NCBI RefSeq assembly: GCF_000018545.1
Contig: NC_012587.1
Span: 3,376,001 to 3,440,000, forward strand
Length of the DNA stretch: 64,000 nucleotides
From: Sinorhizobium fredii NGR234
GTDB lineage: Bacteria; Pseudomonadota; Alphaproteobacteria; Rhizobiales; Rhizobiaceae
Reading direction: 5' to 3'
The translations under genes were made by a program, and so were the position numbers. The notes beneath the pieces are model-generated. The model was not told the origin of the DNA, searched no databases, and was given only the letters and a program-made list of their open reading frames with translations. Of the stretch, positions 51,514-57,270 are shown piece by piece. The stretch's first letter is position 1. Each line of letters begins with the position of its first letter.

Positions 51514-54500
51514 CTACTTCTTCAGTTGCTCCTTGAGCGCGGCGAGCTTCGCGAAGGGCGAATCCGGATCGATCGGCTTCTCCTTGCGCGGCGGGCGATT
51601 GTCGAACTTGACGGCCCGGTCGTGGCGCTCGTGTCGGTCCTGACGCTCCTTGCGCTGGCCGCCCGGCTTGCCATCCTGAGGCTTGGCGCGCCCCGGGGCA
51701 CCGCCCTTGCGGCCGCCCTCCCGGGCTTCCCCCTGGCCGTGCCGCTGACCGCCACGGCGCTGGTCGCCCTGCTGATGGCGTCCGCCGCGCTGGTTGTCCT
51801 GGCGGGTGCCGGGACGCCACAGGAGCACCGGCTTCGGCTCGGCTGGCTCTTCCGGCTGCGCGGCTGCGGGAGCTTCCTCGCCGCCAGCCTCAGCCGGCGC
51901 CGCTTCCGTCGGAGCAGCTTCTGCCAGTTCGGCTTGTGTCGACGCCGTTTCCGCCGGTGCCGCATCCGCATCGGATGGCTCCGCTGCGTCATCTGCATCC
52001 GCCTCGACGTGCTCGGTCGCCGCTTCCGGCGCTGCGCTCGCCTCTGCCGGCGTGCCGTCCTGCTTCGCAAGGAAGGCTGCCGCCTCCTCCGCGGTCACGC
52101 TGTCGGCGCGATAGCCGAGACCCTTCAGGATCTCCTCCATATCATCCGGCGTCGCGCCGAGGATCGACAGCATCGACGTCGTCGCCGTGAAGCGACGGCC
52201 GTCATAGGCACCCTCGGGCCGCTGCGTCGTGCCGGGCTTCCATTGGAGGAGCGGGCGGATCAGGTCCGCGAGACGCTCCAGGATGTCGATCCTGACCGCC
52301 CGCTTGCCGAGATAGCGAAATCCGGCGAGCTTGTAGAAGGTCCGCTCGAAGGACGGGTCGGTGACGACCGAAGTCCGGCCGGCGGCAAGAATCGGGATCA
52401 GTTCGCCGTAGCCGGGCTTGTCCAGGCCGTCGTTCTTCAGCGCCCAGAGAAGCGTGATCAGTTCGGCCGGGGCCGGCTTCAGGAGGGCCGGCAGGAAGAT
52501 GTGGTAGGCGCCGAAACGAACGCCATACTTGCGGATCGACGCCCGGCTTTCCTGGTCGAGCGACTTCACCTCTTCGGCGACGTCGCGCCGGAAGAGCACG
52601 CCGAGATTCTCGACGATCTGGAAGGCCAGCCCCTTGGCCAGCCCCTCAAGATCCTCGGCGCGCGAAATATCGTCGAGCGGCTTCAGCACCGTGCTGATGT
52701 GATGGTTCACGTAGCGCTCGATCCGCGCCACGACATGGTCGCGGGCATTGGCCGTGAGCTGCTCGTCGGCAAGCAGGATGACGCGGGGCCGCATGACGTG
52801 GTCGCTGGCCGCAAGCCGCGCCACCGGATCGCCGAGCCAGCGCACGAGACCGTCCGACGAAAGCGCCAGGTCGTTGTTGCCGGCCGCATGCAGACGGGCG
52901 GCGCGCGCCTCGAATTCCAGCGCAAGCGCCTTCTGGGCAGCGCCCTGAACGGCCTTTGCGTCCGTTCCCTCGCTGCCGGCGACAAGCGTGAACCGGAAAC
53001 CGGTTAGCTGACCCACGTGGTGCCCTTCGACGAAGACATCACCATTCACACTGATTTCTGCTTCCAGCATCGCATTCTCTCTCAGGCGCTTCATGAGCAC
53101 AGATGTCCTGCGGTCAACGAAGCGTTTCGTCAACCTTTCATGTAACGCGTCGGACAATCGATCTTCGATTTCCCGCGTCTTTTCTTGCCAGTGTGTCGGA
53201 TCGGCAAGCCACCCGGGCCGGTTGGACACATAGGTCCAGGTCCTGATCTGCGCGATTCGCGCCGAAAGTGTGTCAATCTCGCCATCCGTATGGTCGGCGC
53301 GGCGGACCTGCTCGGCCATGAAGTCCTCGTTGACAGTGCCATGGCGAACGAGATCGGCATAGATGCTCGCAATCAGGTCGGCGTGCTGCGCCGGCGCGAT
53401 GCGACGGTAGTCGGGCAGCGCGCAGGCTTCCCAGAGCTTCTCGACGCGTTCCGAAGTCGTGGCCACGTCCACGACCTCCGGATATCGGGCCAGGTGCTCC
53501 AGTGCCTGCTGGTCGACGGCCGGAAGGGCGCGCGTCAGGCCGGACACCGCCGGTGCCGCCTCGAGGCTGTGCTTCAGCGCCTTCAGGGAGGAATAGTCGA
53601 CCGCCTTGGAGCGCCATTGCAACACCCGGACCGGATCGAACTCATGCGACTCGATCCGCTGCACCAATTCGTCCTCGAAGGGATCGACGCGACCGGTGAC
53701 GCCGAATGTGCCGTCACGGACATGACGGCCGGCGCGGCCGGCGACCTGGGCAAGCTCAGCCGGATTGAGATTGCGGTACTGGTAGCCGTCGAACTTGCGG
53801 TCCTGCGCGAAGGCGACGTGATCGACGTCGAGGTTGAGCCCCATGCCGATCGCGTCGGTCGCCACCAGATAGTCGACGTCGCCTTCCTGGTAGAGCGCCA
53901 CCTGGGCATTGCGGGTGCGCGGCGAGAGAGCGCCGAGCACCACCGCGGCGCCGCCGCGCTGCCGCCGGATCAGCTCGGCGATGGCATAGACCTCGTCGGC
54001 CGAGAAGGCGACGATCGCCGAGCGATGCGGCAGCCGGGTGATCTTCTTCGAGCCCGCATAGAGAAGCTGCGACATGCGCGGCCGTTCGACCACCGTTATA
54101 CCGGGCAAGAGGTGCTCGAGGATCGGCCGCATGGTCGCGGCACCAAGCAGCAGCGTCTCTCCCCTGCCGCGCAGATGCAGGAGCCTGTCGGTGAAGATAT
54201 GGCCGCGCTCCAGATCGCCGGCGAGCTGCACCTCGTCGATCGCCACGAAGGAAGCCGTCGTCTCGCGCGGCATCGCTTCCACCGTGCAGACCGAGTAGCG
54301 GGCCCGATGCGGGGCGATTTTCTCCTCGCCGGTGATCAGCGCGACGTTGTGGTGTCCGACCTTCTCGACGAGACGCGTATAGACCTCGCGGGCAAGCAAT
54401 CGAAGCGGCAGCCCGATGACGCCGCTGTCATGCGCGACCATGCGCTCGATGGCGTAATGCGTCTTGCCGGTATTGGTGGGTCCGAGCACCGCGGTCACGC

Positions 54501-54540
54501 CGCGGCCGCTCAGGATCATGGATTGGAAGGACAAGGTCAT
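51514..54540 (-). CDS. Suv3-like DEAD/DEAH RNA helicase with long low-complexity tail
   Basis: A 1008-residue helicase. Motif I is GPTNTGKT near residue 20, motif II DEVQLAGD near 105, motif III-like GAATMRP, and motif VI QVAGRAGRHV near 277, followed by a long helicase C-terminal and SUV3-type region up to about residue 800. The last 200 residues are first Ala/Glu/Pro-rich and acidic (AEASAAPEAATEHVEADADD) and then Gly/Arg/Gln-rich and basic (QDNQRGGRHQQGDQRRGGQRHG in pieces), like RNA-binding degradosome helicases. In the mitochondrial relative Suv3 works in RNA decay. The ATG at 54540 precedes the P-loop; 54519 is an alternative. Upstream lie a RIME copy and the GANTC cluster. It is followed by an S4 protein gene after 7 bp. 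Confidence 0.9.
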   Translation of the reverse strand: MTLSFQSMILSGRGVTAVLGPTNTGKTHYAIERMVAHDSGVIGLPLRLLAREVYTRLVEKVGHHNVALITGEEKIAPHRARYSVCTVEAMPRETTASFVAIDEVQLAGDLERGHIFTDRLLHLRGRGETLLLGAATMRPILEHLLPGITVVERPRMSQLLYAGSKKITRLPHRSAIVAFSADEVYAIAELIRRQRGGAAVVLGALSPRTRNAQVALYQEGDVDYLVATDAIGMGLNLDVDHVAFAQDRKFDGYQYRNLNPAELAQVAGRAGRHVRDGTFGVTGRVDPFEDELVQRIESHEFDPVRVLQWRSKAVDYSSLKALKHSLEAAPAVSGLTRALPAVDQQALEHLARYPEVVDVATTSERVEKLWEACALPDYRRIAPAQHADLIASIYADLVRHGTVNEDFMAEQVRRADHTDGEIDTLSARIAQIRTWTYVSNRPGWLADPTHWQEKTREIEDRLSDALHERLTKRFVDRRTSVLMKRLRENAMLEAEISVNGDVFVEGHHVGQLTGFRFTLVAGSEGTDAKAVQGAAQKALALEFEARAARLHAAGNNDLALSSDGLVRWLGDPVARLAASDHVMRPRVILLADEQLTANARDHVVARIERYVNHHISTVLKPLDDISRAEDLEGLAKGLAFQIVENLGVLFRRDVAEEVKSLDQESRASIRKYGVRFGAYHIFLPALLKPAPAELITLLWALKNDGLDKPGYGELIPILAAGRTSVVTDPSFERTFYKLAGFRYLGKRAVRIDILERLADLIRPLLQWKPGTTQRPEGAYDGRRFTATTSMLSILGATPDDMEEILKGLGYRADSVTAEEAAAFLAKQDGTPAEASAAPEAATEHVEADADDAAEPSDADAAPAETASTQAELAEAAPTEAAPAEAGGEEAPAAAQPEEPAEPKPVLLWRPGTRQDNQRGGRHQQGDQRRGGQRHGQGEAREGGRKGGAPGRAKPQDGKPGGQRKERQDRHERHDRAVKFDNRPPRKEKPIDPDSPFAKLAALKEQLKK

Positions 54541-54556
54541 CGATCCCGGGCAGTCT

Positions 54557-54659
54557 CTACAGCGCCGCGCGTCTTTCAGACGCACAAAGGTCGCTGAAGC
54601 ACTTCTGATTGCTGCATGTTCTATCCTTAAATCGGCGCCGATTTAAGGATGGAACATGC
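54557..54659 (-). repeat. RIME-like element, copy H (reversed)
   Basis: CTACAGCGCCGCGCGTCT faces AGACGCACAAAGGTCGCTGAAG, then TGCATGTTCTATCCTTAAATC faces GATTTAAGGATGGAACATGC. It begins 17 bp before the helicase start codon, on the 5' side of that gene. A further GC-rich hairpin (CTCCGG...CCGGAG) lies at 54683-54712. Confidence 0.8.
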
Positions 54660-54819
54660 GATAGGAGCCAAGCGCTGACGCACTCCGGCGGGCAACAGAT
54701 GCCCACCCGGAGGCCCGAGCGCAAGGGGGCGCGAGCAATTAAAAGCATCAGGCTGCCGCCGGCCATATCTTGGGGCTCTTTTCATCTGCAAAAATTGACA
54801 CGTGGAACAGTGGTGGAAC

Positions 54820-55116
54820 GAATCGGAGACGAATCGCTGACTCGCGCCGATTCACTGTATGTTCACGACTATATATAGATTTCAACGACTGGACTCGCAC
54901 CATATGCTGAATCTTCCGTCGCCCCAGGCGTCGCACCATGAACGAGGCGGCACATTAGGGCCGCCGACGACGGAATCAGCTCAAAGGATTCCGAATCCAA
55001 GAGTCTGGAATAGCTGGAAAATTTTGACCAAGATTCGTTTTTCGGCACTCCGATTCCGGGAATACGAATCGCCACATCGCAGGCGCGGCCGAGTTGAGGC
55101 GACTCCGCTCGGACTC
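54820..55116. other. Dense cluster of 15 GANTC (CcrM) methylation sites
   Basis: GANTC starts at 54820, 54831, 54839, 54849, 54892, 54909, 54973, 54987, 54993, 55001, 55032, 55052, 55066, 55101 and 55112. Random sequence would give about one in this length; the first kilobase of the window has two. Most copies sit in CGAATC, GATTCG or GATTCC contexts. The stretch is non-coding, contains the AT-rich palindrome CTATATATAG at 54869-54878 and a hairpin CTCCGC-N8-GCGGAG at 55103-55122. It lies upstream of the helicase gene and behind the phbB terminator. Confidence 0.85.
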
Positions 55117-55199
55117 GCGGAGTGCGTAGTCCCTGCCTCTGCCCGCTACAACATATAGTGGTCACGTGCTTCGTTGATGCAGGGATTTCGACGGCGCAA

Positions 55200-55231
55200 A
55201 AATGAAAAGCGGCGCCCCGAAGAGCGCCGCG
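55200..55231 (-). terminator. Rho-independent terminator of phbB
   Basis: On the minus strand GCGGCGC pairs with GCGCCGC around TCTTCGGG, followed by TTTTCATTTTT, about 23 bp behind the phbB stop. Confidence 0.85.
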
Positions 55232-55253
55232 CAACAACCGACGATCGAAAATG

Positions 55254-55979
55254 TCAGGCGAAATACTGCCCGCCATTCGCCGAGATCGTCGAACCGGTGA
55301 TGAAGCCGGATTCATCCGAGGCCAGGAACACGACGCAGCGGGCGATTTCCTCCGGCTCGCCGAGGCGGCCGACGGGGATCTGCGGGATGATCCTTTCGTT
55401 CAAGACCTTTTCCGGCACCGCCCGCACCATCTCCGTGCCGATATAGCCGGGGCATATCGCATTGACGGTGACGCCCTTTGCCGCGCCTTCCTGGGCCAGC
55501 GCCTTGGTGAAGCCGAGATCGCCGGCCTTGGCGGCCGAATAGTTCGCCTGGCCCATCTGGCCCTTCTGGCCGTTGATCGACGAGATGTTGATGACGCGGC
55601 CGAAGCCGCGGTCGCGCATGCCCGACCAGACCGGATGCGTCATGTTGAAGAGGCCGGTGAGGTTGGTGTTGATGACCTCGCCCCACTGTTCCGGCGTCAT
55701 CTTGTGGAACATCGCATCACGGGTGATGCCGGCATTGTTGACGAGAATGTCGACCGGCCCGAGATCCGCCTCGACCTTGGCGATGCCGTCGACGCAGGCC
55801 TGATAGCTGGAGACATCCCATTTGTAGACCGGGATGCCGGTTTCCTGCTTGAAGGCCTGAGCCTTCTCGTCATTGCCGGCATAGTTCGCGGCCACCTTGT
55901 AGCCGGCCGCCTTCAGCGCGACGGAAATTGCAGCGCCGATACCGCGGGACCCACCCGTAACCAATGCTACCCTGCTCAT
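55254..55979 (-). CDS. phbB: Acetoacetyl-CoA reductase PhbB
   Basis: A 241-residue short-chain dehydrogenase that makes (R)-3-hydroxybutyryl-CoA with NADPH for polyhydroxybutyrate. The cofactor motif is VTGGSRGIG near residue 7, the NAG motif near 88, the catalytic serine in NISSINGQKGQ near 138 and Tyr-Lys in YSAAKAG near 151. The ATG at 55979 gives the family start. It lies 109 bp behind phbA, the usual phbAB order, and ends at a terminator. Confidence 0.97.
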   Translation of the reverse strand: MSRVALVTGGSRGIGAAISVALKAAGYKVAANYAGNDEKAQAFKQETGIPVYKWDVSSYQACVDGIAKVEADLGPVDILVNNAGITRDAMFHKMTPEQWGEVINTNLTGLFNMTHPVWSGMRDRGFGRVINISSINGQKGQMGQANYSAAKAGDLGFTKALAQEGAAKGVTVNAICPGYIGTEMVRAVPEKVLNERIIPQIPVGRLGEPEEIARCVVFLASDESGFITGSTISANGGQYFA

Positions 55980-56088
55980 GTTCGCCTCCCATTGGGTTAA
56001 GTCTGCCAAAACTGTCCTTCCACGGCCCGGAGGTCCGGGCCGTGCTCTCGTTTGATAGGGCGGGTAGCCCTTGCATGCCGCTGGCCGG

Positions 56089-57270
56089 TTACAGGCGCTC
56101 GACGCACATGGCGACGCCCATGCCGCCGCCGATGCACAAGGTTGCAAGGCCCTTGGAAACGCCGCGCCGCTTCATCTCGAAGAGCAGCGTGTTGAGGACG
56201 CGGGCACCGGAAGCGCCGATCGGATGGCCGATGGCGATCGCGCCGCCGTTGACGTTGACGATCGACGGATCCCAGCCGAGATCCTTGTTGACCGCGCAGG
56301 CCTGCGCCGCGAAGGCTTCGTTGGCCTCGACGAGTTCGACGTCGCCGATCGGCCAGCCGGCCTTCTCGAGCGCCTTGCGGGAGGCGGGAATCGGGCCGGT
56401 GCCCATGATCTGCGGGTCGACGCCGGCCGTCGCCCAGGAGACGATGCGGGCGAGCGGCTGGATGCCGCGTTTGGCAGCCTCGGCCTCGGTCATCAGCAGC
56501 GTCGCGGCGGCGCCGTCATTGAGCCCGGAGGCATTGCCGGCGGTCACCGTTCCTTCCTTGTCGAAGGCCGGCCTGAGCTTGGCAATCGACTCGAGCGTGG
56601 CGCCGTGGCGGATATATTCGTCCTGATCGACGGTGACGTCGCCCTTGCGCGTCTTGACGATGAAGGGGACGATCTCGTCGGCGAAGCGGCCGGCCTTCTG
56701 CGCCGCCTCGGCCTTGTTCTGCGAGCGGAGCGCGAATTCGTCCTGCTCCTCGCGGGTCAGCTGCCACTTGCGCGCCACGTTCTCGGCGGTGGTGCCCATG
56801 TGGTAGCCGTAGAAGGCGTCGGTCAGGCCGTCCTTGATCATCGTGTCGATCATCTTGTAGTCGCCCATCTTCACGCCGCCGCGCAGATGGGCGCAATGCG
56901 GCGCCATCGACATCGACTCCATGCCGCCGGCGACGATGATGCTCGCATCGCCGGTGGCGATCTGCTGCATGCCGAGGGCGACGGCGCGCAAGCCCGAGCC
57001 GCAGAGCTGGTTCATGCCCCAGGCGGTCTTTTCCTGCGGGACGCCGGCCTTGATCGCCGCCTGGCGGGCCGGGTTCTGCCCTTCGCCGGCCGGAAGCACC
57101 TGGCCGAGGATCACCTCGTCGACCTCTGCCGCATCGACACCGGCCCGTTCGAGGACCGCCTTGATGACCGTTGCACCCAGTTCATGAGCGGGAGTGTTGC
57201 CGAAGGCGCCGTTGAAGGACCCGACTGCGGTGCGAGCGGCGCTGGCGATCACGATGGAGGGATTGCTCAT
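56089..57270 (-). CDS. phbA: Acetyl-CoA acetyltransferase PhbA (beta-ketothiolase)
   Basis: A 393-residue biosynthetic thiolase that joins two acetyl-CoA into acetoacetyl-CoA. The acyl-carrying cysteine is in [11 protein letters not shown] near residue 89, the catalytic histidine in [10 protein letters not shown] near 349 and the second cysteine in [10 protein letters not shown] near 379. The ATG at 57270 gives the family start ([17 protein letters not shown]). It is the first gene of phbAB, divergent from phaR across 225 bp that may hold a PhaR site. Confidence 0.97.

Follow-up and report, generated by a model that had tools for sequence, protein, structure and literature searches.

A conserved, unusually dense GANTC array joined to an SOS-type box upstream of a helicase gene

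What are 15 GANTC sites, the targets of the CcrM methyltransferase, doing within 297 bp of intergenic DNA in Sinorhizobium fredii NGR234? An earlier note, made from the letters of this DNA, had singled out the cluster and proposed, among other readings, a cell-cycle dependent switch for the helicase gene downstream. The element proves to be real and conserved: before one helicase gene, unusually many GANTC sites are fused to an SOS-type box. We rate it as a putative new variant of CcrM-linked control regions, for which the mechanism set out below is a proposal. In the sampled part of the genome no other place comes near it in GANTC density, and it is kept over many genera; it could therefore serve as a natural test bed, since an effect of methylation, if there is one at all, would be expected at this place. 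Its features are listed by position in the window (the whole 64-kb stretch of DNA that was analysed).

51514..54540, minus strand: Suv3-like helicase gene (PF22527 and PF00271 matches), adjoining the element.
54804..54878, plus strand: unit 1, GGAAC-N6-GGAAC GAATC-N6-GAATC-N3-GACTC-N5-GATTC ... GTTCAC-n2-CTATATATAG, with spacing kept across genera.
54805..54819, no strand assigned: SOS-box-like operator GAACAGTGGTGGAAC (GAAC-N7-GAAC), touching the first GANTC; the only such box in the window.
54820..55116, no strand assigned: GANTC array of 15 sites, from direct count and alignment conservation; the sites start at 54820, 54831, 54839, 54849, 54892, 54909, 54973, 54987, 54993, 55001, 55032, 55052, 55066, 55101 and 55112.
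54861..54878, plus strand: GTTCACgaCTATATATAG, the conserved end of unit 1; in other genera GTTCAC-n-GC-n-A-n-AT-n-T-n-G.
54983..55009, no strand assigned: middle block AAAGGATTCCGAATCCAAGAGTCTGGA with three GANTC, the N of the third being G or C between species.
55101..55158, plus strand: worn second unit, recognised from the alignment and from unit spacing in other genomes.
55209..55230, minus strand: phbB intrinsic terminator, which marks the limit of the element away from the helicase.

Density and setting of the array

Direct counting placed the 15 GANTC sites at exactly 54820-55116, as the earlier note had it. Across the window there are 108 GANTC (93 outside the cluster), against a mean of 364 in dinucleotide shuffles, so that the motif is avoided outside the cluster, where the fullest 300-bp segment holds 4. 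Sampling of the same genome (60 stretches of 20 kb, 1.2 of 6.89 Mb) yielded 1,991 GANTC, or 1.66/kb, and a best 300-bp segment of 6 sites; places of similar density, named in the earlier note as grounds for dismissing the cluster, were thus absent from the 1.2 Mb sampled. The six-site segment, at L402 6005 (G000 C3 ~2376005), is the second densest met in the genome. Under a Poisson model with the background density, at least 15 sites have a probability of ~1e-17, rising to 3e-13 if the density is doubled. Furthermore, strong enrichment among the 16 like palindromes (XYNY'X' pentamers) is limited to GANTC, which is enriched 30-fold in the cluster relative to a 400-kb genome sample (4.5-fold for the next pentamer) and 21-fold over 33 aligned sequences (4.8-fold for the next).

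A density unmatched in the 1.2 Mb sampled, together with the site conservation described below, leaves almost no chance that the cluster is accidental, a decayed simple repeat or a coding stretch. No direct repeats were found in the region, and the reading frame 54859-55155 is open in only 3 of 33 aligned rows, on which ground the coding reading was rejected.

The array region is single-copy in the genome and lies 280-576 bp upstream of 54540, taken as codon 1 of the helicase (an alternative GTG start, the one in the ORF list, is at 54585); the earlier note had given 280-575 bp. Its other landmarks were located as well: the AT-rich palindrome is CTATATATAG at 54869-54878, and the phbB terminator behind which the cluster was said to lie is at 55230-55209 on the minus strand. 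Judged by position and description, the helicase is probably the counterpart of SMc03877/mgpS of S. meliloti, and mgpS is named among the RNA helicases raised in acid (PMC4941405; papers cited by PMC number are represented throughout by the portions of their text that were retrieved). The genome encodes GcrA and LexA, as well as an ORF of 387 aa of RAMA/CcrM type, assigned by its RAMA domain; GcrA and a putative CcrM, the two factors of a CcrM/GcrA promoter, are present.

Two minor sequence features lie near the array. CACGTG hexamers occur at 54799 and 55163, one on either side of the cluster; within the alignment the one at 55163 is present only here (L006) and in L007 and L035, and the pair is not generally conserved. 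A nearly perfect 46-bp palindrome at 54614-54659, in the helicase leader, was rejected as part of the cluster, being a dispersed repeat, similar copies of which are scattered through related Sinorhizobium genomes and occur on plasmids.

Conservation and unit structure

Sixty relatives were searched and the intergenic DNA between two gene anchors was extracted. Three rows were dropped (L001, this genome's own sequence a second time; L026, identical to L025; and L012, without the phbB anchor), giving an alignment of 33 rows, of which 31 are distinct sequences from the genus and two come from one other genus each. The intergenic region carries 12-18 GANTC in all 31 genus sequences, and 10 and 6 in the two others. 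Sites at 54831 and 54909 are kept in 33/33 rows, those at 54820, 54839, 54849, 54987, 54993, 55001, 55032 and 55066 in 29-32 rows; 10 of the 15 are kept in at least 29 of the 31 genus rows, and the least kept, at 54973, in 10 of 31. Averaged over the genus rows, the share of the majority letter is 0.925 for the G, A, T and C of the sites and 0.824 for their N, against 0.692 for the rest of the region and 0.699 for the flanks. The alignment that the earlier note had proposed as a check thus shows GANTC positions kept in relatives while neighbouring bases drift, the opposite of the lack of conservation that the note had set as a refutation, and the sites upstream of this gene appear to be kept by selection, as in a CcrM/GcrA promoter.

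The central N is informative in its own right. At five sites it changes while GANTC is kept, namely 54892 (G/C/T/A), 55001 (G/C), 55052 (A/T/G), 55101 and 55112, a turnover to be expected if selection acts on a CcrM target. At the other 10 of 15 sites N is nearly fixed, so a larger protein site may account for some of the conservation, and the fixed-N sites may also serve another protein. The array could accordingly be read as a platform for a sequence-specific protein with GAATC or GACTC in its site, CcrM methylation being incidental. That reading is possible, though we think it unlikely: the near-fixed N at most sites speaks for it, as does a unit spacing fixed across genera that includes non-GANTC letters (GGAAC, TTTGTTCAC, GC-n-A-n-AT), whereas the five sites at which N turns over, and the lack of strong enrichment of any other like palindrome, speak against it.

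The turnover of N also bears on a reading of the region as a small RNA or structured 5' leader in which GANTC pairs form parts of stems. GAATC can pair with GATTC and GACTC with GAGTC, and RNAalifold finds some pairing on both strands; against this, changes of N would break stem pairs while GANTC stays, the consensus energy is weak for 379 columns (column shuffling is a poor control here, and its z-values were not used), and Rfam gives no match at E<=1 in 53500-56500. An RNA role is highly improbable on this evidence, and of the hairpins described in the earlier note there remains a weak folding signal that lacks an adequate control.

The account of the array in the earlier note stood, but it had missed the SOS-box-like GAACN7GAAC, the repeated unit and the spread of both beyond the genus. 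The box GAAC-N7-GAAC is the complement of GTTCN7GTTC, the SOS box of alphaproteobacteria (PMC6237742, PMC7987155), and is exact in 33/33 aligned rows, so that a LexA/SOS-type operator sequence stands at a conserved place. The same box form occurs as GAACACATATGGAAC before the genome's own lexA, ending 47 nt before the ATG by hand count, and 13 SOS-type boxes in either orientation were found in the 400-kb genome sample. Many other Rhizobiaceae have GAGTC-TG as the spacer between the two GAAC, which places GANTC at 0, 11, 22, 30 and 40 bp in those genomes. A link between CcrM and the control of the DNA-damage response becomes testable through this joined box.

The second unit, worn at 55101..55158 here, is clear at the same place in several related species (for example L025, L029 and L034), where it reads GGAACGAATCGGCGACGAATCG ... 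GTTCACCACAACATATAG. Many genomes carry a second unit ~273 or 283 bp farther from the helicase, and among the stretches listed from named genomes the distance within a pair is 271-274 or 280-285 bp in at least 41 of at least 51 pairs. A helical phasing rule, with the main distances one turn apart, was considered and is not claimed, because distances of 201, 216, 238, 241, 244, 246, 257, 277 and 294 bp also occur and the genomes are related. Copy number varies in places: one Rhizobiaceae locus (L268, G085) has three copies of the unit in a row upstream of the helicase, 202-206 bp apart and one of them with a mismatch, and L105/L200 and L114 have a further copy ~1.6-1.8 kb beyond the usual pair.

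Distribution and linkage to the helicase gene

The exact core GAACGAATCNGNGACGAATC was found in 159 of 297 Rhizobiaceae genomes, representing 64 of 109 genera and often twice per genome; the reversed control gave 0. The start of the helicase gene adjoins the core in 72/72 further loci, 71 of which have the exact box within 900 bp, mostly ~105-205 bp upstream of the helicase start. Among the matches listed, which include records of Mesorhizobium, Rhizobium, Ensifer, Hoeflea, Nitratireductor, Chelativorans, Brucella/Ochrobactrum and Bartonella, the helicase lies in the same block in at least 109 of at least 119 stretches from named genomes; in nine of the ten listed stretches without it the unit is within 645 bp of the block end, the tenth being L254. 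An exact box directly at an exact copy of the core is present in 87 of the 109 helicase stretches listed and missing from 22. Within the genus, 24/24 genomes have the box with GAATC attached in the intergenic DNA of the helicase, with 2 further matches elsewhere in them (one per genome, two genomes having one more); this combination occurs in 0 of 16 genomes from other families. The linkage extends to a plasmid: in Rhizobium sp. NLR16a the element, with 11 GANTC per 300 bp, lies on a 489-kb plasmid together with the helicase and phbB, two extra genes standing between the element and phbB. The connection with the helicase drawn in the earlier note is thereby strengthened, by the 72 loci, the named stretches and the plasmid copy alike.

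This linkage also weighs on another class of explanation. SeqA-bound GATC clusters of E. coli are dense arrays of a palindromic methylation site, and the present array resembles them in that respect and in the near-helical spacing of its core; the motif and enzyme are different, and the element is not at an origin as far as tested. A SeqA-like sequestration site, a replication-timing site or a site titrating CcrM or GcrA, which merely happens to adjoin the helicase, would fit a count of 15 sites in 297 bp, far above the one to three per promoter of tested targets in the retrieved literature, and a region present once in this genome, with one box-GAATC per same-genus genome (two having one more); in addition, parS-like sites form a group some 70-160 kb away from the chromosomal copy. 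Such a function might be expected at a place tied to the origin and independent of the neighbouring gene; the element instead goes with the helicase, even on the NLR16a plasmid, which makes this reading very unlikely. An origin or parS element proper was rejected: the parS-like CACGTG site at 54795 departs from parS at 2 positions, a degree of match for which chance alone predicts 1.2 cases, and better parS-like sites lie 70-160 kb away. A phage element was likewise rejected, as the 3 viral contigs with the core pattern have no helicase and about two are expected by chance on a rough estimate of collection size.

Beyond the family, an order-wide sample searched with up to 2 mismatches gave matches in 16 of 61 genomes (2 for the reversed control). 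Eight of these, among them this genome and one relative from the same family, have the match beside the helicase; the eight with matches only elsewhere were taken as chance. The helicase-linked matches from six other families have 2 (L274, without a box), 7, 9, 11, 12 and 14 GANTC per 300 bp, so that boxed arrays of 7-14 sites stand beside the helicase in five other families of Hyphomicrobiales (L260, L261, L267, L272, L275). We also read 56 helicase upstream regions, mostly from genomes without the exact core and leaving out G058, in which the helicase is in two pieces. The 32 with a box have a median of 5 GANTC in their best 300 bp (the pattern had guided the choice of 6 of the 32; leaving these out, a hand count gives n=26 and a median of 4.5), and the 24 without a box a median of 1; box and array, as read from these sequences, go together. 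None of the 24 box-less regions exceeds 3 GANTC per 300 bp, though a CcrM-type RAMA match is present in those genomes, which suggests that the element is dispensable in some lineages. A RAMA match was found in all 77 genomes tested, and loss of CcrM is therefore unusable as a control.

These more distant regions return to the idea of a protein platform from both sides. The consensus of the 32 box-anchored regions has partly lost the first GAATC while GAAC, CGAATCGCTGAC and TTTGTTC remain, a point in favour of the platform; against it, lineages add many GANTC outside the core (12 sites in L261, 14 in L267).

A class-level sample, with the helicase in 58 of 96 genomes, allowed 30 upstream regions to be read. 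Outside the order, 25 of 28 of these regions have 0-3 GANTC per 300 bp, and three (L288-L290; 4-5 GANTC) hold unit-like sequence with no exact box at the unit. Four genomes without the helicase are also without the exact unit; they belong to a set chosen beforehand for having no exact core, and so provide no test of linkage.

A candidate control region and its known relatives

We read the cluster, with moderate confidence, as a region upstream of the Suv3-like (mgpS) helicase operon that controls it, composed of a LexA-type operator and a spaced CcrM array, because the element is found with the helicase and keeps its distance from it, and because phbB is not always the other neighbour. The sequences themselves establish the conserved sites and spacing, the linkage to the helicase, the specificity for GANTC and the turnover of N; methylation, occupancy by LexA and GcrA, and any regulatory output are inferred. 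The element would form a compact nucleoprotein site in which GAACN7GAAC is fused to spaced CcrM sites, often with one strong unit near the gene and a weaker second unit ~270-285 bp away. Late in the cell cycle CcrM would methylate the array, which the passing replication fork would then leave hemimethylated; the methylation state could in turn affect how GcrA-sigma70 binds, or how some other protein does that contacts several GANTC along nearly the same face of the DNA, while LexA would cover the adjoining box until DNA damage. Expression of the helicase would in this way answer to replication timing and DNA damage together.

Two results speak against a role of GcrA in its simple form. YGAKTCK, the extended GcrA motif, shows hardly any enrichment in the element, accounting for 3 of the 15 GANTC here (L006) and 158 of 445 in the 33 rows, compared with 196 of 671 in the 400-kb sample; in 72 other loci, whose copies are related, the share is higher, at 326 of 616. 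In addition, a scan for sigma70-like promoters that used only the E. coli consensus gave no match in 54500-55300, so that the SOS-type box overlaps no promoter recognisable by that consensus.

A bolder version of the control-region reading, which we consider doubtful, is a deeply conserved single-place epigenetic gate, in which the dense array of GANTC in fixed geometry would read fork passage by hemimethylation and open or close the LexA operator, the two units looping over ~270-285 bp. If true, it would be the GANTC counterpart of GATC-array epigenetic switches, with a helicase operon switched by replication and DNA damage; according to the retrieved text of PMC5172544 (2016), alphaproteobacteria had no known phase-variable promoters at the time.

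Among known systems, tested CcrM/GcrA promoters (Caulobacter mipZ, podJ and ctrA P1; Brucella ogt and mutL) have one to three sites (PMC3667746, PMC6813329). The present element resembles them in having GANTC near a gene start in a genome with CcrM and GcrA, which makes methylation-dependent control plausible; unlike them, it has up to 15 sites, a unit structure, an SOS-type box and a YGAKTCK share that is hardly raised. GcrA-bound regions in Caulobacter average ~two GANTC/kb (PMC3667746), and in Brucella, where lexA, uvrA and ogt are among the GcrA targets, GANTC shows a 4.4-4.7-fold enrichment in the GcrA peaks (PMC6813329). GANTC above expectation is shared with the Agrobacterium repABC/ori2 module, where two of three repABC promoter sites are needed for replication (PMC11514494); there, however, a stretch holds three sites beside replication genes, and here 15 sites stand with a helicase gene and no rep genes.

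CcrM depletion in Agrobacterium raises SOS-related genes (PMC11514494), and in the Caulobacterales SOS genes ruvC and imuA the LexA motif overlaps GANTC with no apparent regulatory effect (PMC7987155), a precedent that counts against the control-region reading. An SOS box with GANTC is common to those genes and the present element, but the present array runs on for ~300 bp past the box. In S. meliloti some GANTC are shielded by MucR (PMC5172544), and such hypomethylated promoters are a parallel in being regulatory GANTC in the same genus, although the validated loci (SMa1635, SMa2245) are on pSymA; the word helicase is absent from the main text of that paper as retrieved. Between 31 and 53 GANTC sites per Ensifer strain were repeatedly not detected as methylated (PMC8725594), and GANTC is under-represented across genomes, while intergenic DNA has an excess of it (PMC3973325). 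No description of the element was found in the portions of the literature searched, whose scope did not include supplementary tables, and it may be listed somewhere.

A separate observation concerns the parS-like group, which lies outside the window at G000 C3 3501493-3592477. Several of its sites overlap GATTC or GAATC (GTTTCACGTGAATC), and GANTC may mark partition sites in this genome.
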